Source: Candidatus Termititenax sp. (GTDB lineage: Bacteria; Margulisbacteria; Riflemargulisbacteria; GWF2-35-9; DYQY01). From it: a DNA stretch of 64,000 nt. The stretch spans positions 62,001 to 126,000 of the forward strand of contig DYQY01000004.1 of NCBI GenBank assembly GCA_020719045.1, read 5' to 3'. This document shows, one piece after another, positions 43,515-59,208 of this stretch (position 1 is its first letter; every line of letters begins with the position of its first letter). Under the pieces are notes generated by a model, which was not told the origin of the DNA, searched no databases, and was given only the letters and a program-made list of their open reading frames with translations. A program made the position numbers and the translations under genes.

Positions 43515-44450
43515 ATACATGCCAATCATATTTAATAAATCTTTTCTCATCCTTCGCCTAATCTCTATTGGCTCAAGAATCTCAGCTTGCGCACCAAACG
43601 ACAAAAGCCAACGATAAGTTCCTTCTGTATCATTTGAAGTAAAGCTTAATAATGCCCTACCTTTATCATCTATCATTATCTCCGAAGATTGACCAAAGAC
43701 TTTCTCTGACACAATACCAGATAACTCTTTAGCAAACCTAACGACAACTTTAAGTTTTTGCTGTGAAATATTTTCTGAAACTGTATTATTTTGAACCACA
43801 GCAAATCCTGTCTTTAACACTCGTAACTCTACGATTTTATCTAATGCATATTTTGCTTCTTCATTTTTTTCATTCAAGGCAATCAAGAACCATTCACCAA
43901 AAATAAATGTAAGCCTTAATGGTTTAACGCTTAACTTTACAGACTTCTTGTTTGAAAGATGTGCTAAATGAACAATACTTAGAATCTTTCTATCTTCTAT
44001 GGCAGAAGCAATAGTGCGTAACCTAGCAAAATATCTCTTATCCACATCAATCTTGTCAGCAAGCTTTAAATCCATAGAAAATGTAGAAGAACTCAAGTCA
44101 ACTTTATCATCTAAAATAGAAGAGAATTTCTTAAAAGCCGACTCAATGATTGTGTAATAAGGGGTATCTTTATAGTTCTCAAGCACAACTCTACCAAGCA
44201 ACAAGGAAACAATATCACCCTCGGTTAAGGAAATATCCTCAAGCTTAAATTCCTTACTATAATAATACCCATTCTTGCTCTTGGAGTACCTTAACGGTGC
44301 GCTAAAAGATTTCTTCATAAAATCAATATCTCTTAAGATTGTTCTGTCGGATACATTAAAAAAATGTTGCAATGTCTGACAGTTCGGAAAAGTATTCGCC
44401 CTTACAAGTTTATCTATTTCTAATATTCTAAGGTAAGATTCATTAACCAT
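43512..44450 (-). CDS. WYL-domain HTH transcriptional regulator
   Basis: 312 residues. N-terminal DeoR-like winged helix (TLQHFFNVSDRTILRDIDFM) followed by a WYL ligand-sensing domain (LRLTFIFGEWFLIALNEKNE) and the C-terminal WCX extension (RWLLSFGAQAEILEPIEIRR). Such proteins respond to nucleotides or nucleic acids. Its start overlaps the LptD-like stop, placing it last in the block that includes dnaB. Confidence 0.85.
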   Translation of the reverse strand: MVNESYLRILEIDKLVRANTFPNCQTLQHFFNVSDRTILRDIDFMKKSFSAPLRYSKSKNGYYYSKEFKLEDISLTEGDIVSLLLGRVVLENYKDTPYYTIIESAFKKFSSILDDKVDLSSSTFSMDLKLADKIDVDKRYFARLRTIASAIEDRKILSIVHLAHLSNKKSVKLSVKPLRLTFIFGEWFLIALNEKNEEAKYALDKIVELRVLKTGFAVVQNNTVSENISQQKLKVVVRFAKELSGIVSEKVFGQSSEIMIDDKGRALLSFTSNDTEGTYRWLLSFGAQAEILEPIEIRRRMRKDLLNMIGMY

Positions 44451-45952
44451 TACATCTTAAATACTACACTAAACTGATTCCTAATGTCATCATATGAGAA
44501 ACTAAAATCTAAACAATTATAAAATGGTAACCGAAAAGTATACTTTCTCTGATAATAATCACCAGACCATTTCTTTCTGGCATCAAACTCAAACAGAAAA
44601 TAAGGCAACTTTGCTTTCATTCCATACAATAAATTATTTTCCCTACTAATTTCATATAAATCATGACTAAACGGTGAAGAACCGTCAAAAAACAACATGA
44701 ACTCTGAACCTACATGAAAATCAAAAATAGAATATGGAACTGTAATCTTAACAGTATCCCATATCCTTGAGTGACTCCTATCACTATAATAACTTGATAG
44801 TCCAGCAAGCTCGTTACCAACACCAAACACTCCAAAACCTAAGTTAGTAAGCACCTTGGCTTCAACCTGCCTTCTCCAGTCAGAGGTTACAACTCCTGTG
44901 CTATATGTTAGCTCGTTTAAGTATGCATACTCATAACTTGCTTTTAAGGTGTTATTTGAATCTAATTTCGAAACACTCTCAATCGTAATCCTTGGAACCT
45001 GATCAACAAACCAATTATTTATAAGCTCCTTTTGATACCACTTAACTTTAATCTTTAAACTATCAGACAAAAGTTTATCTTTATCAAAAAGATACCAAAA
45101 CAAATAACCACTTTTTTCTTCTGTTTGGAAAAAATCGTATGAATACTCTGCTCCACCTTGAAGTAACTTTGGATTATAGTAAAAAGAAGCGTTAAGTAAA
45201 TTTTTAGGCCCCAATATAACAAAATGGTCTACCCCTACTTTAGGACCAAGCTTCTCCAAATATCCTAAAAATAAAGACCCACTATTCATGCTATCCATAT
45301 AGTAAGGTATTCGTTCTTTAACATAATTACCTTCTGCTTCATTACTTCCAATCTCAGGAATAAACTCACTAACCTTGTTATACTGATGTCCTCCCATAAA
45401 ATAAGCTGGCAAATAAAAAATAGGAATATTGTAAATATAAAAAATAGAATTAAAAACCACCATAAAGCCAAGCTTAGGATACATTACCATCTGTCCACTG
45501 GAAATATAAAAAACAGGAGGATCACCATCGCAAGCAGTGACTCTTACATTATCTAGATGATACTCATTCTTTACAGTACGAAGCTTCTCTCCTTTAATGT
45601 TATATTTCTCAAAAAACATTAAAACATTATTGGCAGTAAGCATCTTTGTCTTATTATTTAGCTCAAGGTTCTTTCCTTGTATCTCTTGCCCATTATACAG
45701 TATTGAAAAATCATTATAAAAATTAAAAACATCTTTATCTATAGAGTATTCTACTAAGTCGCTATTAAACTTATATACAAAGCTACTAATTTGTACGTTT
45801 TTAGAAAGGATTAATATCTGCTCATCTGCACTTAGTCTGAAAGCATCAGCAGTAACATAAACAGCATTTTCATTAACAGTATCTATTACCTGACTACAAA
45901 AACTAATCACTGAAAATAACAGAACAATAACTAGCTTTAACTTACTGCTCAT
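44450..45952 (-). CDS. LptD-like (OstA) outer-membrane assembly protein
   Basis: 500 residues. Signal peptide SKLKLVIVLLFSVISFCSQ, then an OstA-like beta-jellyroll (VYVTADAFRLSADEQILILS; ELNNKTKMLTANNVLMF) and the LptD hallmark YISSGQMVMYPK with IYNIPIFYLPAYFMGG. The C-terminal 300 residues look like barrel strands. It is shorter than typical LptD (about 780), so a reduced or related assembly protein is possible. It overlaps dnaB by 11 bases. Confidence 0.77.
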   Translation of the reverse strand: MSSKLKLVIVLLFSVISFCSQVIDTVNENAVYVTADAFRLSADEQILILSKNVQISSFVYKFNSDLVEYSIDKDVFNFYNDFSILYNGQEIQGKNLELNNKTKMLTANNVLMFFEKYNIKGEKLRTVKNEYHLDNVRVTACDGDPPVFYISSGQMVMYPKLGFMVVFNSIFYIYNIPIFYLPAYFMGGHQYNKVSEFIPEIGSNEAEGNYVKERIPYYMDSMNSGSLFLGYLEKLGPKVGVDHFVILGPKNLLNASFYYNPKLLQGGAEYSYDFFQTEEKSGYLFWYLFDKDKLLSDSLKIKVKWYQKELINNWFVDQVPRITIESVSKLDSNNTLKASYEYAYLNELTYSTGVVTSDWRRQVEAKVLTNLGFGVFGVGNELAGLSSYYSDRSHSRIWDTVKITVPYSIFDFHVGSEFMLFFDGSSPFSHDLYEISRENNLLYGMKAKLPYFLFEFDARKKWSGDYYQRKYTFRLPFYNCLDFSFSYDDIRNQFSVVFKM

Positions 45953-47332: not shown

Positions 47333-48151
47333 TTAAGTCGCTTTAATGAAATATCTCTTTAGCTGGTCTGTATGAATCTCTATTTTATCTCCAACAGGAT
47401 GATTCTTTAGTTTATTCTTAACTGTTTTAACTGCCAATTCTGAACTATTACAATCACGACTAATATGAGCTAAAAACACATGTTTGGTTCTACTAACATC
47501 TACTAACTCGTATAAATAATCAGCAGTTTGCTCATTTGATAAGTGCCCTTGGTCGCTAATAATTCTATTCTTTAAAAAAAATGGTCTATCAGATGAGGCC
47601 TGCATATCTATATCGTAATTTGCTTCTATAAAATACACATCATTGTTACTGTGAAACTTCTTCATGTTGTCAGTTAAATGACCAAGGTCAGTCATAAACG
47701 ACATCCTATGTCCATTTGATTCAAAAACAAAACCAATATGCTCACCAGTATCATCATATCCTTCACCTTTACCAATATGAGGAAGTCGACAATAACTAAC
47801 TTTCAAATCAACAATAGTTTCTTCTTTAATGCCGTTCATCACTTTAATTCTGTTATCGAATTTTGATAAACCAGGATATTTCTTCATTAATACTGTCTTA
47901 GTAGCAGCTCTGGTATAAACATCCGCATTATGATTCTTCATGAAAACTAGAAGTCCCTGAACATGGTCAGCATGAGCGTGTGTTATATATACCCTATCAA
48001 TATCTTCAATCTTAACTTTAAAAAGGTTTAGACTATCTACAATTTTTTTATAAGAAACACCTACATCAACTAAGACTTTCACATTGGCTGTTTCAACTAA
48101 GGTACAATTTCCAGAACTACCACTAAATAAAGGAATATAAGAAAAAATAAT
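47333..48151 (-). CDS. WalJ/YycJ-like metallo-beta-lactamase-fold hydrolase, apparent ATT start
   Basis: Metal site ITHAHADHVQGL, then FMTDLGHLTDN and LAHISRDCNS; family members are DNA exonuclease-like enzymes linked to replication. The first canonical start (GTG 48082) cuts off the conserved N-terminus. In frame upstream lies IIFSYIPLFSGSSGNCTLVE, matching the family's SGSSGN segment, and no ATG, GTG or TTG precedes it. ATT at 48151 (or 48148) with AAAGGTGA upstream is the best start, giving 272 residues. The junction TAATT mirrors TAATG overlaps nearby. Confidence 0.8.
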   Translation of the reverse strand: MIFSYIPLFSGSSGNCTLVETANVKVLVDVGVSYKKIVDSLNLFKVKIEDIDRVYITHAHADHVQGLLVFMKNHNADVYTRAATKTVLMKKYPGLSKFDNRIKVMNGIKEETIVDLKVSYCRLPHIGKGEGYDDTGEHIGFVFESNGHRMSFMTDLGHLTDNMKKFHSNNDVYFIEANYDIDMQASSDRPFFLKNRIISDQGHLSNEQTADYLYELVDVSRTKHVFLAHISRDCNSSELAVKTVKNKLKNHPVGDKIEIHTDQLKRYFIKAT

Positions 48152-48933
48152 TAATCACCTTTCCTAACATAAAACTTTTGAATACCAGTAAAAGTTTCTC
48201 CTGGAGATAATCTTGTCATTGGCCAAACTAATTCAGCTTCCAAATAAGTATCATTTTTGTAAACTTCAATATTACACCTATGAGGGAACTCTGTTTGCAA
48301 TTGCTTTTCAGATAAAATAATTTCTTTAATTAAGGTTAGCTTTCCTAAGCTACACTCAAGAACATTATCATCAGAAATTGCACCTAATTTAAAATCTAAT
48401 CCTTGCTTAGGTGTTACAGTATATTTATTATTAATACTTAAGTTATTTGTTGCAACCAAACTATCCAGCGTTATGTTTTCTGGGTAATCAAACACCTTAA
48501 CTTCTGTTGCACTGAAAGTAACTGACAACTCATGAACTGGCAGTTGTGAAATATTCCACAAACCCCACTCAACAGGACTAGAAGATGTATTAGAAAAAGA
48601 ATTTTCTACAATTAACTCTTCATCAATAAAATAAATGGTTCTAGACAAAACAATACCATTCCAAGAAGGAGAAGTAATTTCTAACTTTATATCTGTCTTG
48701 GAGAAACTCCATGCCAAGCTATCAAACTCTTTAACTGGTGGCCATCCGCCCCATTTTGCCTGAGGAGCCAACCAAAGAAAATCGCCACCATAGTTAGTCC
48801 ATCCACTATCTGTAGGCTTATTTGATGAATAAAATAACGGAATATCTTGATAGTATACCTGCTCTATCCTTCCACCATGTGTAGGATTCACAACAACTTT
48901 CAATTTACCTTTTTCTAAGAAAAGCTGACTCAC
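48151..48933 (-). CDS. DUF4380-type beta-sandwich protein
   Basis: 260 residues, no signal peptide. NPTHGGRIEQVYYQDIPLFY, NYGGDFLWLAPQAKWGGWPP and the late ELVWPMTRLSPGETFT fit DUF4380, a family with a galactose-mutarotase-like fold. It directly abuts the GH8 gene (no spacer), suggesting a role with the same carbohydrate. Activity unknown. Confidence 0.72.
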   Translation of the reverse strand: MSQLFLEKGKLKVVVNPTHGGRIEQVYYQDIPLFYSSNKPTDSGWTNYGGDFLWLAPQAKWGGWPPVKEFDSLAWSFSKTDIKLEITSPSWNGIVLSRTIYFIDEELIVENSFSNTSSSPVEWGLWNISQLPVHELSVTFSATEVKVFDYPENITLDSLVATNNLSINNKYTVTPKQGLDFKLGAISDDNVLECSLGKLTLIKEIILSEKQLQTEFPHRCNIEVYKNDTYLEAELVWPMTRLSPGETFTGIQKFYVRKGD

Positions 48934-51900
48934 TTACTTATATTTACGGTTCTTTTTATCTTTTCTACGCTTATAAAGATAAAAAACAACTGCAGTAAGA
49001 ATAATAAGTAAAACAATCCATTTCCATGGAATACCAAAACCTTTTTGTAGTGATGAGTACATCTTAGGATCAAAATCCAGTAATGAAACTATTAAGAATT
49101 TTCTAGTCTTATTTTTCTCATCATATTCAACTACAACACTATCCTTAACTTTTACAGGAGCTAATGTCATTGGACTATACACTGTTCCTAAATCAACCAT
49201 CCCTCTGTATCTGCCTGAATGATTTGTTGTTTCAGTTAATCTTACCTTCACTGGATAGTAGTTATCACCAAGAGGATAAACTAAAACTTTTGAATCAAAA
49301 ATATCTAACTTAGTAGGATCTGCATCTTTTCCTAATACCTCAACATATACTTTCTTGAACTGAATATTATCATCCTTACCAATCTCTGCTACGTAACCTG
49401 GATCATGGAATAACTTAACTGTTTGAACTAGGGTTGGACGCTTCTTCCCAACTCGATAGTTTTTGTTCTTTAAGTATACTTTATTAATCTTACATGTTTT
49501 ATCTAATTTACCAGCACTATCTATTAAGAATTGGATATTTCTAACTTTATTAAAATCAAAATCATCTGTCACATCAACATACTGTTGCTGATCAGCACTC
49601 CAACCTTTCCACCAAGACCTATCTCTAATTTTATCCTTCTGCACCAACTTCATTTCCACGTCAGAACCTAATCCTTCTGCAGCTGACCATTCATAAACTC
49701 CAGCACCTTTTTCTGAATTCCATGCTGCATATCCATTAAGTACAGCTTTATTACCTGACTCATCCTCGATATCAACCCTTAGCTCACCTGGGTTATTATC
49801 TAATTGCATTTCTACAATTAAATCTTCTTTATCTGACCAGTCAGCATAACGTCCATTAAGTCCCCAAGCTCCGAAGTATGGATAGTCATCACCACGATAT
49901 CTCTTATACACATCTAAGTGCTTCTTACCTTTTCCAGCAACTTTAAGCATATATGATTTATCAGCAGCTTCTGAACCAGCAATCCACCAAATAACTGGAT
50001 ATTTGTCATCAATACTACCATCAGCAAAATCGTCGATTATATGAATTAAGTCAAATAATCCAACTTCAAATTGGGCAGCTTTAGCTTTTTCTACAGGAGG
50101 AACAATCTTAACCTTACTTCCCCACGCAGCACCTAAAATATCCTCATCCTTATATGTATTTAAGTCAGTGCTAAATGCACCTCTATATATTCCTGTATTT
50201 GCCCCTGTTTCCTCTAAAACAACAATAATCGACTTATCGTTAACAACCGCATCATTACTATAAAGCTCTACATTAATCTTATCTCTACTGTTTTTATCTC
50301 CGTCTCTCCCTTTAACTTCTAGATAAACTTTCTGAGTTGTAATTAAATTCTTAAGCTCATACTTATACAGTTGGTCTCTGAACAATTTTACATACTCAAT
50401 ATTTTTTGGGTTGGTTCTGCCAATGTGTTTATTGCCTCTTATTAGATACATATCGTCAATCTCAACAACAGAATCAGCCTTTTCACCACCACCAATACTA
50501 AGCTCTACATTAAGAATATCTCCTAATTTAAACTTACTAGTAACATCAACATAGTTCTCTACAGTTGTATCGTATGATTTCCAGAATCTTCTATCTTTAA
50601 TAGGTCTTGTATCTATAGCCCTATCGGATACTGCTCTACCAGACTGATAATTAGAACTCCAACGATACCAACCAGGACCCTTATTATAATTGTACGGATT
50701 ATAAGAATTTAGAACTGCTGTTTGTCTATTAGAGTCCTCAATGTCAACTTGAATGTCCCCAATATTTCCTGGTAAATATATCCAAAAAACGAATTCAGTC
50801 TTATCGTTCCATTTTTTCAAATCCCCACTAAGACCCCATTTACCAAGATATGGATAATCTTTACTAAAATATGTTTTTCTTATCTGCAGTGAATTTGGTC
50901 CAGAAACACTTCTCTTATTTGAAATCATTAATTCATAAGATTTAGTTCTGCCGTATTCCTTAACAATAAAAGGAATAGTGTATGCTTTATTCCAATCGTT
51001 TGGACCTACGGAGGTTAATTGTGGATACTTTTTACCATCAATATAGTTTTCAATCTGCACAAATGTTCCATCAAGCGTAAAATCGATACCATCTTCTGCA
51101 TATTTCTCAAAAGCTGAAAATTCAACGCTCTTTGGAGTACTCTGAGCAACAGAATCACCTTGTTCAATATTGTATCTATTAATAATGTTAATATTTCCAT
51201 CACTCTTTAATGAGCCAGTAAACTTATGAGTTGTTTGGTCTGATGACCATCTTAAATACCATGTATTATTATCTTTCCAAAGGAAATAACCAAGCTTTTT
51301 TCCTGCTGGATATATAGGTCTGCCATCTGTTGGATCGATATTATCCACCCACCAAGAATCAGGATTAATACCAGCAGCAATATCATCAAAATTATCTAGA
51401 AGAATCTTTAAGTCAAACTCTCCTATTTTAAGTTGCTTCACAAAACCTTTTCTTACATCAGAAAAAACCTTGATTGTACTACCAGCACTTGCACCAATAA
51501 TCCTATGAGCAAAATCTGAATAAACACCAATCTTCAAATGTCCTCTATATATACCAGAATTTATATCAGTCTCAATAAGCTCTAAATCCATGTCCTCACA
51601 ACCTGGATGCTTATCGCTTGTCTCTATTCTTATTTTAAATCTATCTATTGTTTCTTTTGAGGCATCTTTGCCTGTTACTTGAATATATACATTGTCTTTA
51701 TTTAACAACGATTTATCGGCGATAACTTTAGTAAACTCTTTATCATTATAAAATGCTATATCAGCTATTGATTTAGGTTTATTAAAAGCATAATAATAGT
51801 TATCTTTCTTTAATGTAAGATTATCAATAATTAACTCTGAGTTGTCTTTATTTCCACCATTAATACAAAACATTATATTCTTAATGTTTGCTAGATTAAT

Positions 51901-54900
51901 CTCTTTTGTTCGCTCTACATTTCTTCCTTTGTCAAAAGACCAACCCTTCCACCAGTTTCTATACCTTATAGAAAAAGGTTGAAGTAAATTAGCATTTACG
52001 TCCACGCCGAGCAAGTTATTAGACTTCCATTTATACCAACCTGCACCCTTTTCTCTGCTCCAAGGATTATATCCATTTAAAATAACTACTGTTCCATCTT
52101 CATCCTGAATATCAACCCTTATTGTTCCAATATCATTTTTCAAATAAACATCAAATTCAAACTCGTCAAACTGAGTCCAGTCCTTATGTTCTTCATTAAA
52201 AACTACTGCTCCAGCATATGGATATCCTTTACCAATATAATTTTTATTAATCTTAAGCGCGTAATTTGAATTATAAGCAATACTACTGCTCATTTGATAT
52301 TTATAAGTTCCTGTTTCACCAATATTTCTTAACACTAATGGAGCACCAAAAGAACTTAATGCATCAACACCGATTTTAAATGCTTCAAGGTCATATACAC
52401 CGTTTCTTTTAATATCAAATATTACGTATTCTCCATCAACAGTAAAATCTATTCCATCTTGTCCATTACGTTCCTGAAAACTAAAATCTACTGACCTCTC
52501 AAGCTTTTTAAACTGATCTGTATTCTCTGTATCAGAATTACCAGCATAAGTAACCTTCCCATCAGTAAGTATCATTCCATGATAAATCTCACCATTATCT
52601 CCTGCTAGAAAACGAATATGCCACTTAGTATCTTTCCAAATATATATCCCAGCGTCTTTTCCTACATTAAATGCGGGCTTACCGGAACTTGGAAAAATCG
52701 AATCTGTCCACCAAGCCATTGGATTTGCATCGTCATATGCTCCATTTTCGAAGTCTTCTACAATCATAGGAATTACAAGCTTACCAATCATGTATGTTTT
52801 ATTTATCTTTGGTTGATGATCAATAATAACCTTAATTTCCTTACCAACAGAAGCTGCAATTACCTTACCAGCCTTACTACCATCAAGTCCTATACTGAAA
52901 CTTCCAGTGTACACACCTGTCTTATTACCAGTCTCAGCCACTTTAACAATTATAGGGTCTGCACCTTTCTGATTAGATTCCACTCGCACATAGAAGAAAT
53001 CCCTTCGTTTTGGATTTTTATCTTTTCCAACCGCTTTTACGTAAACAGTGTCAACCATTATAGGTTCGTCTTTTACTTTATAATTAAATGCAGAATCTAA
53101 ATACAAATCGAAATCAATAATGTTTGGCTTAGTATTGTCATGTGTATAAAAATTCTTAATCATTCCAGCAAAATGTGCTAAACCAAACCAAGCCCATGTA
53201 CTACTAAAATAATCCATTTGAGCATTCCATTCAGAGTGATCAAAAACTGTCCAATAACCACCCTCTTTACTCTTACTGTACCAACCATCACCATCTTTGT
53301 ATGGAGTACCAATCTCTACACGAGAATCAACCTTTTCAGCTGGAACGTGCTTAGCTAAATTAGCTGGCGTTTCCTTTGCTAACTGATCATCAGGGATAAC
53401 ATACTGTCTTTTACTAAAACCATCTGCCTCTGGTGTTATTAATGGAGTAAGTAACTTTTCAACTATTTTAAAAGTCTTAGGGTTTGGGTCAGACAAATAG
53501 GATGACCAGAAATAAGACAAATAAACACCATACTGAGCACAATTAGCCCTTGAACTAAATGAATTTTGTACATAAGAATCATTTGGTTTTGGCTCATAAT
53601 TTGACTCATATAAAGCATAAGAACCATCATGCCAAAATACTGAAGCAATTTTCTTGGCTTCATCATAGTTAGTTGTTTTATCCCAATTTCCCCTACCGTC
53701 ATTCATTCTGTATGTTAGAAAATTGTAAGGACCTAGATTGCTGTTTTTTCTTAAATAGTCTCTTGCCCTGTCATCACTATACCAATCATAATCAACAGCT
53801 ATACGCCATAATCCTCTAAAAGCATCAGTACCAAACTCTGGCTCTCTTCTACTCTGACCGTCCCTTAATTTACCATCCTTATCAACATTAACCCAGTCTG
53901 GTAAAAGGTTTGCTTTTGCCCAACGCTGTCTTTTCTTTGTATTCTGATTATGGTTTTCACCTTTCTTATCAACCCAATCCTTAAGTGGCATTACTGACGA
54001 TTCATGAAATACCCTGTATGTTGAATCAACAACATCTTGCCAATTGTGTTCAGGATCAAAATCATCAAAGATTCTATAAGTAAAAGGTGAAAGATATCCT
54101 GGCTCAATATCCTTTATATTATCTCCACCAGCAAAGTAACGCTCTCCATTATTTATAAATGTCTCTTTTTTCCAGATATCCTTAATAATATCTCTAGCAT
54201 TCTGCTCATAGTCTAAAAACCTATCGCCCTTTTTGCTGCCCCACAGTTTATGAGCAAATATCAAACTTAACGCAATATCTTCATCTGCATCTGATGCAGC
54301 ATCATATCCATCTCTCCATGGTTCATTTGGATTATTCTCTTTGGATGGAGGTTGCCATCTATAATAGATAATTCCATCTTCCTTCACCCCATCGCCATCT
54401 CGGTCTGCTATTGTAGGTGCCCATCTCCAAGCAAACAAATTATCTTTATCAAGACCTAACTGGCTCATTGATTTCCATCCATTGTCAGGATGGTTAATAT
54501 CTTTCCAAAAATAAACATACTCTAGCTGACTATGCTGAAGGTTCTTCTTAGTCCAAGCCCACACTTTGTCGAAAGTTTTCTTGTCTTTCATCCAAATAGC
54601 TCTTAATAATGCATAAGAAGAGGATTCACTTACAACTAATAACTCAAATGGCTTTTTAGGGTCTGACCAATTAATGTCTGCAATACCGTCCCTATCAACA
54701 TCTCCAGAATCCATAAAAGCATAAGGAGCGCCATCATCACCAATCATCTTTGGGTGTGTAAACTTACCAGACCACCAATCTGCATCAAAATTTTCATGAG
54801 TAATATAATGGTTCCAAACAGACTCTAATATACCCTTGGAAGCTTTTTGATAATCAGAAATCTTACCACTTACATTTTTATTTCCAGCGCATCCTCGTAA

Positions 54901-54996
54901 TAACAAAATAATTATAATTACTACTGCGACAAAACCTAAAAAATAAAATAAATTTCTTCTTAATTTTGATTGATTGTTATATTGTTTTTTCAGCAT
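48934..54996 (-). CDS. Giant membrane-anchored GH8 glycosidase with tandem 454-residue repeats
   Basis: 2020 residues. N-terminal helix 16-34 ends LLLRGCAG (poor lipobox at Cys36). GH8 domain about 50-620: proton-donor Glu124 in VVSESSSYALLRAIWM, then SDADEDIALSLIFA at 235-248; Ca-loop-like DVDRDGIAD and DRDGDGVKEDG. From 630 three modules repeat, each with an ETxxxSGxYxG beta domain (688, 1142, 1596, and a lone fourth at 1921) and a CBM-like part (YPYAGA / YPYLGK / YPYFGA; GTIRVDIQDEDG and variants). The first two units are 454 residues apart; the third lacks 130 residues. Helix 1992-2008 and a Lys/Arg tail close it. Family GH8 enzymes cut beta-1,4-glucans, xylan or chitosan. Confidence 0.82.
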   Translation of the reverse strand: MLKKQYNNQSKLRRNLFYFLGFVAVVIIIILLLRGCAGNKNVSGKISDYQKASKGILESVWNHYITHENFDADWWSGKFTHPKMIGDDGAPYAFMDSGDVDRDGIADINWSDPKKPFELLVVSESSSYALLRAIWMKDKKTFDKVWAWTKKNLQHSQLEYVYFWKDINHPDNGWKSMSQLGLDKDNLFAWRWAPTIADRDGDGVKEDGIIYYRWQPPSKENNPNEPWRDGYDAASDADEDIALSLIFAHKLWGSKKGDRFLDYEQNARDIIKDIWKKETFINNGERYFAGGDNIKDIEPGYLSPFTYRIFDDFDPEHNWQDVVDSTYRVFHESSVMPLKDWVDKKGENHNQNTKKRQRWAKANLLPDWVNVDKDGKLRDGQSRREPEFGTDAFRGLWRIAVDYDWYSDDRARDYLRKNSNLGPYNFLTYRMNDGRGNWDKTTNYDEAKKIASVFWHDGSYALYESNYEPKPNDSYVQNSFSSRANCAQYGVYLSYFWSSYLSDPNPKTFKIVEKLLTPLITPEADGFSKRQYVIPDDQLAKETPANLAKHVPAEKVDSRVEIGTPYKDGDGWYSKSKEGGYWTVFDHSEWNAQMDYFSSTWAWFGLAHFAGMIKNFYTHDNTKPNIIDFDLYLDSAFNYKVKDEPIMVDTVYVKAVGKDKNPKRRDFFYVRVESNQKGADPIIVKVAETGNKTGVYTGSFSIGLDGSKAGKVIAASVGKEIKVIIDHQPKINKTYMIGKLVIPMIVEDFENGAYDDANPMAWWTDSIFPSSGKPAFNVGKDAGIYIWKDTKWHIRFLAGDNGEIYHGMILTDGKVTYAGNSDTENTDQFKKLERSVDFSFQERNGQDGIDFTVDGEYVIFDIKRNGVYDLEAFKIGVDALSSFGAPLVLRNIGETGTYKYQMSSSIAYNSNYALKINKNYIGKGYPYAGAVVFNEEHKDWTQFDEFEFDVYLKNDIGTIRVDIQDEDGTVVILNGYNPWSREKGAGWYKWKSNNLLGVDVNANLLQPFSIRYRNWWKGWSFDKGRNVERTKEINLANIKNIMFCINGGNKDNSELIIDNLTLKKDNYYYAFNKPKSIADIAFYNDKEFTKVIADKSLLNKDNVYIQVTGKDASKETIDRFKIRIETSDKHPGCEDMDLELIETDINSGIYRGHLKIGVYSDFAHRIIGASAGSTIKVFSDVRKGFVKQLKIGEFDLKILLDNFDDIAAGINPDSWWVDNIDPTDGRPIYPAGKKLGYFLWKDNNTWYLRWSSDQTTHKFTGSLKSDGNINIINRYNIEQGDSVAQSTPKSVEFSAFEKYAEDGIDFTLDGTFVQIENYIDGKKYPQLTSVGPNDWNKAYTIPFIVKEYGRTKSYELMISNKRSVSGPNSLQIRKTYFSKDYPYLGKWGLSGDLKKWNDKTEFVFWIYLPGNIGDIQVDIEDSNRQTAVLNSYNPYNYNKGPGWYRWSSNYQSGRAVSDRAIDTRPIKDRRFWKSYDTTVENYVDVTSKFKLGDILNVELSIGGGEKADSVVEIDDMYLIRGNKHIGRTNPKNIEYVKLFRDQLYKYELKNLITTQKVYLEVKGRDGDKNSRDKINVELYSNDAVVNDKSIIVVLEETGANTGIYRGAFSTDLNTYKDEDILGAAWGSKVKIVPPVEKAKAAQFEVGLFDLIHIIDDFADGSIDDKYPVIWWIAGSEAADKSYMLKVAGKGKKHLDVYKRYRGDDYPYFGAWGLNGRYADWSDKEDLIVEMQLDNNPGELRVDIEDESGNKAVLNGYAAWNSEKGAGVYEWSAAEGLGSDVEMKLVQKDKIRDRSWWKGWSADQQQYVDVTDDFDFNKVRNIQFLIDSAGKLDKTCKINKVYLKNKNYRVGKKRPTLVQTVKLFHDPGYVAEIGKDDNIQFKKVYVEVLGKDADPTKLDIFDSKVLVYPLGDNYYPVKVRLTETTNHSGRYRGMVDLGTVYSPMTLAPVKVKDSVVVEYDEKNKTRKFLIVSLLDFDPKMYSSLQKGFGIPWKWIVLLIILTAVVFYLYKRRKDKKNRKYK

Positions 54997-55046: not shown

Positions 55047-56855
55047 CTAGCCTTTTACGGCGCCAGCAGTAAGACCTTTTACGATATGTTTCTGTAGCAA
55101 GAAAAACAACACTAAAACTGGAAGGGTTGCTATAGTAGCAGCAGCCATCATTAGGTCGTATCTGTTTTGATAATTTCCAACAAACAGTCTAATTCCTATT
55201 GGAATAGTTAGAGTGTCTGAATCGGTTAAAATCCATGCAAACATTAGCTCATCCCATGCTTGAAGGAAAATATAAATACCAGTAGCAACAATACCAGGCA
55301 CCGCTAATGGCAAGGTAATTTTATAGAAAACCTGAAAAGCATTACATCCATCTACTCTAGCTGACTCTTCTAGTTCAACAGGAATAGAAGCAAAAAAACT
55401 TCTTAATATCCAAATAGAAAAAGGAACAAAAAAAGCAGTATAGATAAACGTTAAACCACCATGTGTGCCTTGAACCGAAACACCAGTAACATCACTAACC
55501 CATTTGAACATAATGAATATTGGGATTAAATACATTATCTGAGGAATCATTTGTGTAGCTAATATCGATACACCAAAAGCCTTATTTCCAGGGAAATTAA
55601 ATCTAACTAAAGCATAAGATGCTAAAGTAGCTAAAATCATAGCAAAAAGCATTGTAAAGCCTGAAATAATAATACTATTCTTTAAATATAGTCCAAAATC
55701 TATATTCTTCCAAAGGTCAGCATAATTCTCTACCATTACTAGTCTATGACCAAGTGGAAGCTGGAAAGAATCATATGGCTTTCCTTTTAAGTCTTTTATA
55801 AAAGATACTCTACCATAAGATGACCCTAGTATAACCTCATCACCATTTGCAATAATTCTAGTTACCTCACTACTAGAATAGTCAGATTTAGGATCTACAA
55901 CAACCCCATCCTTTAATTCTCTAACTAAATGATAAGCCTCAATATCAACTTTACCTGTATTCAAATTAGCTACTTTTAATCCTGTTGGACTAACAATGTA
56001 TACGGTTTCACCTTTAATGATAATATCTTCAAATAAACTAACACCAAAATCCTTTACATCAAGAACGGCTTGCTTATCAGTATCTATAAAATATATCCCA
56101 TTCTGAACTAATAGTAATAGATTATTACCCTTAACCTGCTTAACCTCTTGAACACCTGCTGGTAGATAATTATCACCTAAATCTATCCTTTTCTCCTCAA
56201 CAAATGTTTGCTTATTTAGAACTAACAAGTACCTGTTTGTATTAACATATAACTTATCACCTATTATTTGAATATTGCGAATAAAACTATCACTATTAGT
56301 TTCTAGCTTAACTTTTCTTGCTAAGGATAAATCATTTTTATTATAAACATATATTCTATTCATACCTTTAAGTTCTATTGAGTAAACGACAACATCATCG
56401 TAGGCAACTATAGATGTTTTACCTAAACGATTAGTGTCTACTCCTGTAACTGGACTAGATGCTTCTTTTTTAATCTCTAATGTTCTTCTGTCTATTTTAT
56501 ATAGACCCTTAGTCGAATTTGCAAAATAGATAAAATCGCTATCTAAAAAATAACTTACGTCTCTTCCATTAACCTTTAACTTATTTAGCGATTTCTTTGT
56601 ATCAGCATCATAGACAGCAATCCCACCATCTTGAGAAAAAACATAGAAATCCTTTCCAGCAAGCTCCATGCCAATAACATCGTTTTTTGCTCTACTGAAT
56701 CCAACTTTTCCACTTAAAATATCATTATTATTTTTAAAAGAAGAAAACATCATCCAAAATATCGGAAATGAATTTATAATCAAAAAAGCAAACATTATTA
56801 CAAGAAAAACGTTTCTTAAGATTCTCTCTTTTTGATAATAATTAACAAAAGCCAT
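55047..56855 (-). CDS. Sugar ABC transporter permease (MalG type) with inserted beta-propeller-like domain
   Basis: 602 residues, twice the usual 280. Helix 1 (14-36) and FSSFKNNNDILSG are normal, and from residue 366 the sequence resumes as MalG (VENYADLWKNIDFGLYLKNS; EAA loop ELEESARVDGCNAFQVFYKI). Between them, about 52-365, lies a beta-rich insert with repeated blades: GIAVYDADTKKSL, LYKIDRRTLEIKK, IYVYNKNDLSLARKV, LLVLNKQTFVEEKRI. By topology it should face the periplasm, next to the binding protein. Joined to the other permease by TAATG. Confidence 0.88.
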   Translation of the reverse strand: MAFVNYYQKERILRNVFLVIMFAFLIINSFPIFWMMFSSFKNNNDILSGKVGFSRAKNDVIGMELAGKDFYVFSQDGGIAVYDADTKKSLNKLKVNGRDVSYFLDSDFIYFANSTKGLYKIDRRTLEIKKEASSPVTGVDTNRLGKTSIVAYDDVVVYSIELKGMNRIYVYNKNDLSLARKVKLETNSDSFIRNIQIIGDKLYVNTNRYLLVLNKQTFVEEKRIDLGDNYLPAGVQEVKQVKGNNLLLLVQNGIYFIDTDKQAVLDVKDFGVSLFEDIIIKGETVYIVSPTGLKVANLNTGKVDIEAYHLVRELKDGVVVDPKSDYSSSEVTRIIANGDEVILGSSYGRVSFIKDLKGKPYDSFQLPLGHRLVMVENYADLWKNIDFGLYLKNSIIISGFTMLFAMILATLASYALVRFNFPGNKAFGVSILATQMIPQIMYLIPIFIMFKWVSDVTGVSVQGTHGGLTFIYTAFFVPFSIWILRSFFASIPVELEESARVDGCNAFQVFYKITLPLAVPGIVATGIYIFLQAWDELMFAWILTDSDTLTIPIGIRLFVGNYQNRYDLMMAAATIATLPVLVLFFLLQKHIVKGLTAGAVKG

Positions 56856-57814
56856 TAAAAAATCTCCTCTGTCTTTTTATAGTGTTTGTACCAAAAATTA
56901 ACAACTATAATCATCACCAATAGTAATAATACTGACGTCGCTGCACCAGCTCCAAAATCCCATCTCATAAACGAGTTACGGAAAATATTTGTCATCATTA
57001 AATCGCCCCACTTACCAGGGAATCCAGCACCATTACCAAACATCATAATTACAATATTAAAAGAATATGTATTATAAATCATTCCAAATAACACTAAAAT
57101 CATCCATACTGGACTAAGCATTGGCCATGTTATCTTCCAGAAAGTTTTCCACTTACCAGCACCATCAATCTTGGCTGCATCATATAAAGACTGAGGAACA
57201 TTTTGTATGCCTGCAAGTAACATCAACATTGAAAATGGCCAAAATCTCCATATAGTAGGAATAATAATTGCCCATATTGAGTTAACTCCTACCAACCAAA
57301 ATGGCTTTTCAGCAAGAAGATGCAACCAGTCAACAAGAATAATATTGATAATACCTATCGTCTGTTGGAACATAAATCCCCACAAAATACCTGTAACATA
57401 AGTTGGAACTATCCAAGAAAACATAAACAAGGTTCTTACAAGTCCTCTACCTTTAAATTCAATACTAAGCATCAAAGCTACAACCATACCAACTGCTGTT
57501 TGCCCAATTGTAACTAAGAAGGAATAAATGATTGTATTTCTTACTGCATCATAGATACCAATTCTCATTGGACTTGATGGGTTAAACATAACGTCATAAA
57601 AATTACCAAAACCAATAAAAGGAGCACCCAAATATTGATTAAGAGTAAAATTATTTAATCTTAAAAAAGACATATACAATCCCTGAACGATTGGGAAGAA
57701 ATGCATTAGAACCATAGCTATAGCTGTTGGCAATACAAAGTAATATGCTATTTTATACTTATGATAGTAATACTTTGTTTTTTCTAAAAAAGTCATTTCA
57801 CTTATATTAACCAT
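56855..57814 (-). CDS. Sugar ABC transporter permease (MalF/UgpA type)
   Basis: 319 residues with six membrane helices. EAA loop VPQSLYDAAKIDGAGKWKTF followed by ITWPMLSPVW, and FPIVQGLYMSFLRLNN after helix 1. Normal size, unlike its partner. It follows the binding protein by seven bases. No ATPase subunit is encoded in the window, so a shared MsmX/MalK-type ATPase elsewhere is expected. Confidence 0.93.
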   Translation of the reverse strand: MVNISEMTFLEKTKYYYHKYKIAYYFVLPTAIAMVLMHFFPIVQGLYMSFLRLNNFTLNQYLGAPFIGFGNFYDVMFNPSSPMRIGIYDAVRNTIIYSFLVTIGQTAVGMVVALMLSIEFKGRGLVRTLFMFSWIVPTYVTGILWGFMFQQTIGIINIILVDWLHLLAEKPFWLVGVNSIWAIIIPTIWRFWPFSMLMLLAGIQNVPQSLYDAAKIDGAGKWKTFWKITWPMLSPVWMILVLFGMIYNTYSFNIVIMMFGNGAGFPGKWGDLMMTNIFRNSFMRWDFGAGAATSVLLLLVMIIVVNFWYKHYKKTEEIF

Positions 57815-57821
57815 TATCTAG

Positions 57822-59174
57822 CTATCTATTCATAAGCAATACTTTATCAACTTCGATTGCTGCTTTCTTTAATACATCATCATAAATAACATCTGTAGTA
57901 AATTTATCTTTGTTATTTAATACATATTCCCACATAATACCAAACCTTCTGTTAAGTGGTTGCTCAATTTGTGCCCACTCTGGGATACAAGGATATGCAC
58001 GACCATACTTAACTGCTTCTCTATAAACTGATCTTCTTACATCTTGAGTAAAATATGGATCATCAAAAGCCTCCATTGCTGATGGCAAGAATCCACTTCT
58101 CTTTGAGTATTCAACTTGAGCTTTTTTACCAACTAAATACTTGATTACTTCCCATGCTTCATCCTTATTCTTGGAGTTCTTAAACACTGAAAGGTTGCTA
58201 CCACCTACGAAAGTGACCTTTCCTTTTGGACCTTCTGGATAAGGAACAATATCAAATCTTTTTGCAACATATGTATTTGCAGCTCCACCTTGCTCTTCTG
58301 GAGTTGTTAGAGCTCTTAACTCATTTGAACCAGTAAATATAATTGCATATTCACCATTGTTAAAAGCATTTTCTACTTGAGAAGTATTTTGCTCTAAACA
58401 AGATGCTGGGACATAACCTTTGATTACTAAATTAACTAAATATGATAACCCGCTTGCTGCTTCATTTGAATAAAGAGCACATTCTTTATTGCCTTCCTTT
58501 AAGAAGTCTCCACCAGCCATCCAAATCCATGGCGCTAAGTTATGAACAACATTCCAGTCGTTCTTACCAGTAATACCAAGTGGGTATACTTTCTTTCCAT
58601 CAATTGTTAAATTTGCTTTGTTAATCTTATCTAATGTGTTTTGGAATGATTCCCAAGTAGCTAAATCATTTTTCGTTAAACCTAATCTATTAAAAACGTC
58701 TGTTCTATAGTACATAGCTCTTGCATCTACAAACCATGGAATAGAAGTTACTGCATTTGAACCATCTATGCCAGAATACTTCCAAGAAGATGGTAGAAAA
58801 TATGAAGAACCACCAAGCTCAGATACTTTACTTGTTAAATCAGCTAAAGCGCCCATGCCAGTAACTGCTCCAACCCATGTCGTACCAAGCTGTAATATGT
58901 CTGGACCTTCGCCTGACATTGTAGCGATTGTAATTCTTTGCCACGCTGAACCCCAATCTAAAGAGGTAATTTGAACTTTAATATCAGGATTTTCTTTATG
59001 GAAGTCTTCTAAAACATCAGATAAGTCATTAATTGGCTCAAGCGAGTTAGGCATTACCCACATAGTAACAACTGTTTGACCACTTTTTTGTTCTTTAGCT
59101 CCGCAACCTGAAATTAATATTGAAAACGAAACGAGAATTACTGAAATTAATATGGACGAAAAAATTTTATTCAT
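57822..59174 (-). CDS. Sugar-binding lipoprotein of ABC transporter (family 1)
   Basis: 450 residues from ATG 59174; a GTG four codons earlier would lie within the AGAGGTGG ribosome site. Signal peptide with lipobox LISGCGAKE. The body is MalE-like: VTMWVMPNSLEPINDLSDVL, MSGEGPDILQLGTTWVG, NNGEYAIIFTGS and GKVTFVGGSNLSVFKNS. It delivers an oligosaccharide to the two permeases; the ligand is unknown but the GH8 gene points to beta-linked glycans. Confidence 0.93.
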   Translation of the reverse strand: MNKIFSSILISVILVSFSILISGCGAKEQKSGQTVVTMWVMPNSLEPINDLSDVLEDFHKENPDIKVQITSLDWGSAWQRITIATMSGEGPDILQLGTTWVGAVTGMGALADLTSKVSELGGSSYFLPSSWKYSGIDGSNAVTSIPWFVDARAMYYRTDVFNRLGLTKNDLATWESFQNTLDKINKANLTIDGKKVYPLGITGKNDWNVVHNLAPWIWMAGGDFLKEGNKECALYSNEAASGLSYLVNLVIKGYVPASCLEQNTSQVENAFNNGEYAIIFTGSNELRALTTPEEQGGAANTYVAKRFDIVPYPEGPKGKVTFVGGSNLSVFKNSKNKDEAWEVIKYLVGKKAQVEYSKRSGFLPSAMEAFDDPYFTQDVRRSVYREAVKYGRAYPCIPEWAQIEQPLNRRFGIMWEYVLNNKDKFTTDVIYDDVLKKAAIEVDKVLLMNR

Positions 59175-59208
59175 AATTGGTACCACCTCTTAGTTTTTTT
59201 CAGGCGTC

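Follow-up and report, generated by a model that had tools for sequence, protein, structure and literature searches.

The window analysed here (the whole 64,000-nucleotide stretch from Candidatus Termititenax sp.) encodes a sugar-importer locus on its minus strand. At 55047–56855 (minus strand) is a MalG-type ABC permease of 602 amino acids with an inserted propeller, recognized from BPD_transp_1 and MalG matches, an AlphaFold2 model, and comparison with orthologues. Its frame begins with an ATG, has zero internal stops, and is intact. Upstream of it are the genes for a MalF/UgpA-type partner permease of 319 amino acids, identified by domain matches and lacking a P2-type insert (56855–57814, minus strand), and for a lipoprotein solute-binding protein with the lipobox ISGC, by homology of the CbpB/betaGlyBP (cellodextrin, beta-glucoside) type (57822–59186, minus strand). 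Downstream, after a gap of 50 bases, is a 2020-amino acid protein with a GH8 domain match and hydrophobic segments at both ends (48934–54996, minus strand). It is followed by a 260-amino acid protein (48151–48933, minus strand) for which a Pfam search gave no match, but which locus comparison places after GH8 at two other loci (L002 and L008) as well. Farther along, at 44450–45952, there is a 500-amino acid protein that by eye resembles an outer-membrane protein of the LptD/OstA type, which would fit a diderm envelope.

The 602-amino acid permease can be assigned to the MalG type (CUT1) on the presence of both a BPD_transp_1 domain (residues 407–595, E 2.4e-17) and a MalG-like core (family NF008231, residues 389–602, E 4e-37). 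The CUT1 partner set is present too, with MalF and the solute-binding protein in the operon and a UgpC/MalK-type ATPase in the genome. Where it departs from the type is in length: members are typically about 280–300 residues with a short P1 loop, although this is not strictly defining, and orthologues without the insert are 282–291 amino acids, half of 602, in line with the twofold difference first noticed. By hydropathy, transmembrane helix 1 spans residues ~9–40 (56736–56831, minus strand; a helix at 6–46 in the AlphaFold2 model), and the next hydrophobic segment starts from ~389, with none in between. Helices 2–6 and the EAA loop make up a permease core at residues ~373–602 (55050–55739, minus strand), and these C-terminal 230 residues match SugB (E 2e-35) and E. 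coli MalG (E 5e-30) in the PDB. The family matches on the core and the hydropathy gap between helices 1 and 2 bear out the original prediction of a MalG-type permease interrupted by about 314 residues, and its conversion of residues 52–365 to bases 55761–56702 is arithmetically correct. It had also put the insert outside the cytoplasm, and this agrees with its location in the loop that joins helices 1 and 2, P1 in MalG; by homology with MalG, the insert would face the periplasm.

The insert itself (residues 52–365; 55761–56702, minus strand) is predicted to be a folded, seven-bladed, Reg_prop-like beta-propeller, on the basis of the model, fold matches, a profile match to sensor propellers, conservation, and dN/dS. 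An AlphaFold2 run built with 27 homologues placed seven four-stranded blades within residues 60–365, at approximately 60–94, 101–132, 147–183, 192–225, 235–268, 277–307, and 326–365, with pLDDT mostly ~80–93 and 70–72 at 221–240; the membrane part is low-confidence in both AlphaFold2 models. When residues 55–375 were compared with solved folds (Foldseek, VIA-align), propellers were the only folds among the matches listed, with VIA Z of 24–25 over ~280 residues at ~2.9 Å for those aligned by VIA-align. A propeller-like region after helix 1 had been proposed from the sequence letters, with structure prediction as the way to check it, and the modelled seven-bladed domain and its fold matches support that proposal.

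The insert is not peculiar to this locus. Its profile matched 31 of the 55 genomes examined from the same phylum (E up to 1e-5), within permease frames of the MalG-type family, one match being split across two contig ends (G006) and another weak and partial (G032). A permease from the same genus is 81% identical over its full length, and those from the same order 57–58%. Homologues with the same layout are found in Marinamargulisbacteria, Saganbacteria, WOR-1, and Fibrobacterota. In the last of these the insert is patchy, in about 4 of 60 sampled genomes; two other Fibrobacterota matches to large-frame permeases (G059:C4 and G058:C49) proved to be ordinary permeases without it. A chimeric assembly of two genes had been named in advance as something that would undo the prediction. 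Since numerous assemblies made independently share the architecture, and their inserts are homologous and identically placed, there is next to no chance that it is an assembly artifact.

Besides permeases with none, there are three size classes of insert, with 191–193, 310–357, and 444–462 residues. They are homologous, the profile of the long form matching the short form at E 9e-37 and the Fibrobacter form at E 3e-24. For the short form (WOR-1 type), of ~190 residues, four blades are predicted, the region of blades 4–6 being the part that is missing; no solved four-bladed ring was among the structure matches listed for it. In the largest class, from Fibrobacterota (L028, L036, L037, and L039–L042), an extra ~110–120 residues lie between blades 2 and 3. 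This segment includes an invariant LFRWCLAER motif, and its profile matched no solved structure. At one of these loci (L028:11615–12778) a histidine kinase with a response-regulator domain is encoded directly downstream of the insert-bearing permease. On a permease-core tree, whose root is uncertain, the size classes need 5 changes, versus 28 in shuffles. One insert-free copy (L023) falls within the clade of short inserts, and a clade without the insert is nested inside the insert-bearing Margulisbacteria, so that, with the same uncertainty about the root, loss of the insert is the simplest reading for both.

Such a record of sizes and losses would suit a propeller that is a spacer or scaffold, or an old insertion that has been tolerated, with a role in stability or assembly and not in substrate handling; blades, or the whole domain, could then be lost. 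Rates of change bear on this from both sides. In seven gene pairs, in several of which dS is saturated, dN/dS was 0.04–0.21 for the insert and 0.008–0.07 for the permease core, and the insert was mostly several-fold above the core. The faster change is what a spacer or relic might show, but the insert values are well under 1, and the domain has been kept in most importer-bearing lineages of the phylum and in some Fibrobacterota. The insert is under purifying selection, constrained yet fast-evolving, and a purely structural or vestigial role seems unlikely.

The gene neighborhood was considered in the light of the original suggestion that the propeller may serve to tether the giant GH8 protein of the downstream gene. 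The repeated modules of that protein begin with motifs such as VEDFENG, LLDNFDD, and IIDDFADG and resemble the stand-alone NFEDG (CBM11/SGBP-like) proteins that Saganbacteria-type loci encode after the permease, on its downstream side. Adjacency on the same strand, in the window and at L001, L002, L003, and L008, is the point in favor of a tether. These loci, all from the order of the window, are the only ones with a GH8 homologue beside the permease, and none was found in the fetched flanks of insert-bearing Saganbacteria-type and Fibrobacterota loci. Neighbors elsewhere include proteins of the GH26-CBM9, GH94, GT2, and SGBP/CBM11-like kinds; Fibrobacteria have an outer-membrane-barrel-like protein there. 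An insert-free locus (L017) keeps the same GH26/CBM-like neighborhood as the insert-bearing ones, and the hydrophobic segments at both ends of the GH8 protein also count against its being held by the permease. With GH8 confined to one order and the insert found elsewhere without it, the insert goes with the importer rather than with GH8. The search for other insert-bearing permeases, proposed at the outset as a check, leaves tethering without standing as a general function, and it is very improbable as an explanation of the propeller.

The importer can be characterized further from its binding protein, which is homologous over its length to Thermus betaGlyBP (E 6e-102) and Clostridium thermocellum CbpB (E 1e-93). 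Two aromatic sugar-stacking sites, the Trp residues of DWG and TTWVG, are conserved in it; the Thermus chains on deposit vary at both, apparently as a result of engineered mutation. For the ATPase, there is a single match over the UgpC cut-off in G000, on another contig. The genome of the window also has one GH94 phosphorylase, an enzyme present in 2 of 14 control genomes. In C. thermocellum, CbpB is a cellodextrin-binding protein and the ATPase gene of its transporter lies outside the cluster (PMC9601137). This transporter B and the Thermus betaGlyBP importer resemble the present system in binding-protein type and in having the ATPase encoded elsewhere. A binding protein of Fibrobacter succinogenes has been reported as similar to a C. 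thermocellum cellodextrin-binding protein (PMC3079729). Judged by homology, from the binding-protein type, its Trp sites, the distant UgpC-type ATPase, and GH94, this is likely a CbpB/betaGlyBP-type importer of beta-glucan oligosaccharides.

One copy of the binding protein occurs in nearly every permease-bearing genome, whether the insert is present or absent. Nearly all copies with a readable N-terminus have the lipobox cysteine, in insert-bearing and insert-free genomes alike. Anchoring is thus uncorrelated with the insert and was rejected as the variable explaining it. In one insert-bearing genome (L142; G018:C22:9800–15000), the binding protein and MalF are in a single 832-amino acid frame with a hydrophobic joint, which may reflect either a genuine fusion or an error in sequencing; in sister genomes (G013, G015, G008, and G010) the binding-protein frame is closed by a stop codon. 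A GH26-MalF fusion at L020 is only apparent, spanning a scaffold gap of Ns.

Among solved structures, the insert is closest in sequence to the Reg_prop propellers with which two-component systems of Bacteroides sense glycans. In a PDB search with a profile built from 22 inserts, the leading matches were the Bacteroides sensors 3va6 and 3ott (both E 5e-33, a total that sums several repeat matches), 4a2l (E 4e-31), and 3v9f (E 1e-20), with PG93 (1e-4) and BUB3 (7e-4) the next chains. The strongest single stretch, over residues 6–249, has E 3e-12. Among the same 22 inserts, at E up to 0.01, Pfam Reg_prop (PF07494) matched six, with L005 above its cut-off and the window copy unmatched, the PorZ N-terminal propeller 14, and PQQ_2/BamB 10. 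Propeller repeats resemble one another, so the Reg_prop relationship may be one of fold type only.

This relationship nonetheless raises the possibility that beta-glucan oligosaccharides bind to the propeller, which would give the importer a second sugar site, either to capture substrate or to sense it and modulate transport. The best-matched Bacteroides chains are far ahead of the next ones, and members of that group do bind sugars: in BT4663 the propeller entry faces are where disaccharides bind (PMC5121618), and purified sensor domains of hybrid two-component systems bind oligosaccharides specifically (PMC3243724). The inserts themselves look less like a sugar site. Invariance is limited to four residues, an Asp-Gly pair plus two other Gly; the aligned copies lack a conserved aromatic (Trp/Tyr) site, and that in the window has no Trp at all. 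In addition, Reg_prop proper is matched by a minority, and the insert diverges rapidly while the binding protein stays one type. Glycan binding was among the functions first suggested; the kinship to glycan-sensing propellers speaks for it and the missing aromatic site against it. It is plausible but on balance doubtful, and ranks as the foremost rival of the docking reading given next. A more specific version, in which a Reg_prop glycan-sensing domain has moved into the permease and uptake is gated or primed when it binds oligosaccharides outside the channel, is decidedly unlikely.

The reading preferred here, tentatively and at somewhat less than an even chance, is that the insert is a putative docking platform for the lipid-anchored CbpB-type binding protein at the translocation site. 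A Reg_prop-type propeller filling the MalG P1 loop would project into the periplasm beside the channel mouth and could hold the binding protein there, perhaps along with other glycan-handling partners that vary by lineage. It would then be the MalG-side counterpart of the enterobacterial MalF P2 domain. In the E. coli/Salmonella maltose importer, Daus et al. (2007; cited in PMC3150292) are said to have found that the binding protein MalE contacts both MalF P2 and MalG P1. The location in the helix 1–2 loop of a MalG relative, the occurrence of a lipoprotein binding protein in nearly all permease-bearing genomes, and the purifying selection on the insert are consistent with docking. Several observations weigh against it. 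Binding proteins of the same family persist in close relatives that lack the insert, which is therefore dispensable for docking. Within the order, identity is 36–39% for the insert and 65–66% for the binding protein, so the insert is the faster to diverge. In a partial Mantel comparison, insert and binding-protein distances were related with r 0.39, which is not discriminating against the MalF control at 0.31. Finally, G018 retains the insert though its binding protein appears to be fused to MalF.

The usual picture of a type I ABC importer is of two minimal permeases and a binding protein. In the present case an entire propeller occupies the loop whose E. coli counterpart faces the binding protein; it has been maintained under selection across many lineages of a phylum and is variable in size, and close insert-free relatives provide natural controls. 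The overall pattern suggests that a further surface for docking or sensing, outside the inner membrane, was acquired by importers of Margulisbacteria and some Fibrobacterota. It raises the question of whether permease loops can become docking or sensing domains, and whether the inserts in Margulisbacteria and Fibrobacterota, in Thermotogales MalG, and in Proteobacterial PstC had separate origins.

Comparison with known systems shows that the architecture, for which the original prediction gave no earlier description, has precedents. The Thermotogales MalG1 and MalG2 were reported in 2008 to have a ~500-amino acid hydrophilic region between helices 1 and 2, without similarity to known proteins and of unknown function, and insert-free paralogues exist (PMC2246101). 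The likeness is in having a large hydrophilic region at this place in a MalG homologue; compared by description only, the Thermotogales region is longer (~500 versus ~314 residues in the window) and belongs to a maltose-type operon. PstC-type permeases of ~749 amino acids with a propeller-like region after helix 1 were also seen (L096:1165–3414 and plasmid NZ_CP070468.1:88997–91255), those of Aeromonas caviae and a Pseudomonas aeruginosa plasmid being 50% identical. Their insert matches Pfam Beta-prop_WDR3_1st at E 8e-5, under the curated cut-off. These too are type I ABC permeases with a propeller-like region in the helix 1–2 loop, but of a phosphate-type family with pst-like neighbors and a WD40-like insert, in contrast to the MalG/SugB-like core, sugar binding protein, and Reg_prop-like insert of the window; they are probably an independent case of the same architecture. 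A search for COG4590, presumably a name for this PstC-type precedent, gave no match. The P2 domain of E. coli MalF is similarly a periplasmic outgrowth of a permease loop, adjacent to the binding protein, but it is in MalF rather than MalG, between helices 3 and 4 rather than 1 and 2, with ~180 residues and another fold. Bacteroides hybrid two-component sensors such as BT4663 share the seven-bladed periplasmic propeller, the context of glycan utilization, and the sequence-profile relationship; they have two propellers and a YYY domain on a histidine kinase, whereas the 602-amino acid protein has one propeller within a permease and lacks the second propeller, YYY, and kinase. For a propeller in a sugar permease, a literature search covering mostly open-access papers gave nothing direct. 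An insert between helices 1 and 2 is itself known, then, and what is new here is the Reg_prop-like propeller, the new lineage, the size classes, and the insert-free controls.
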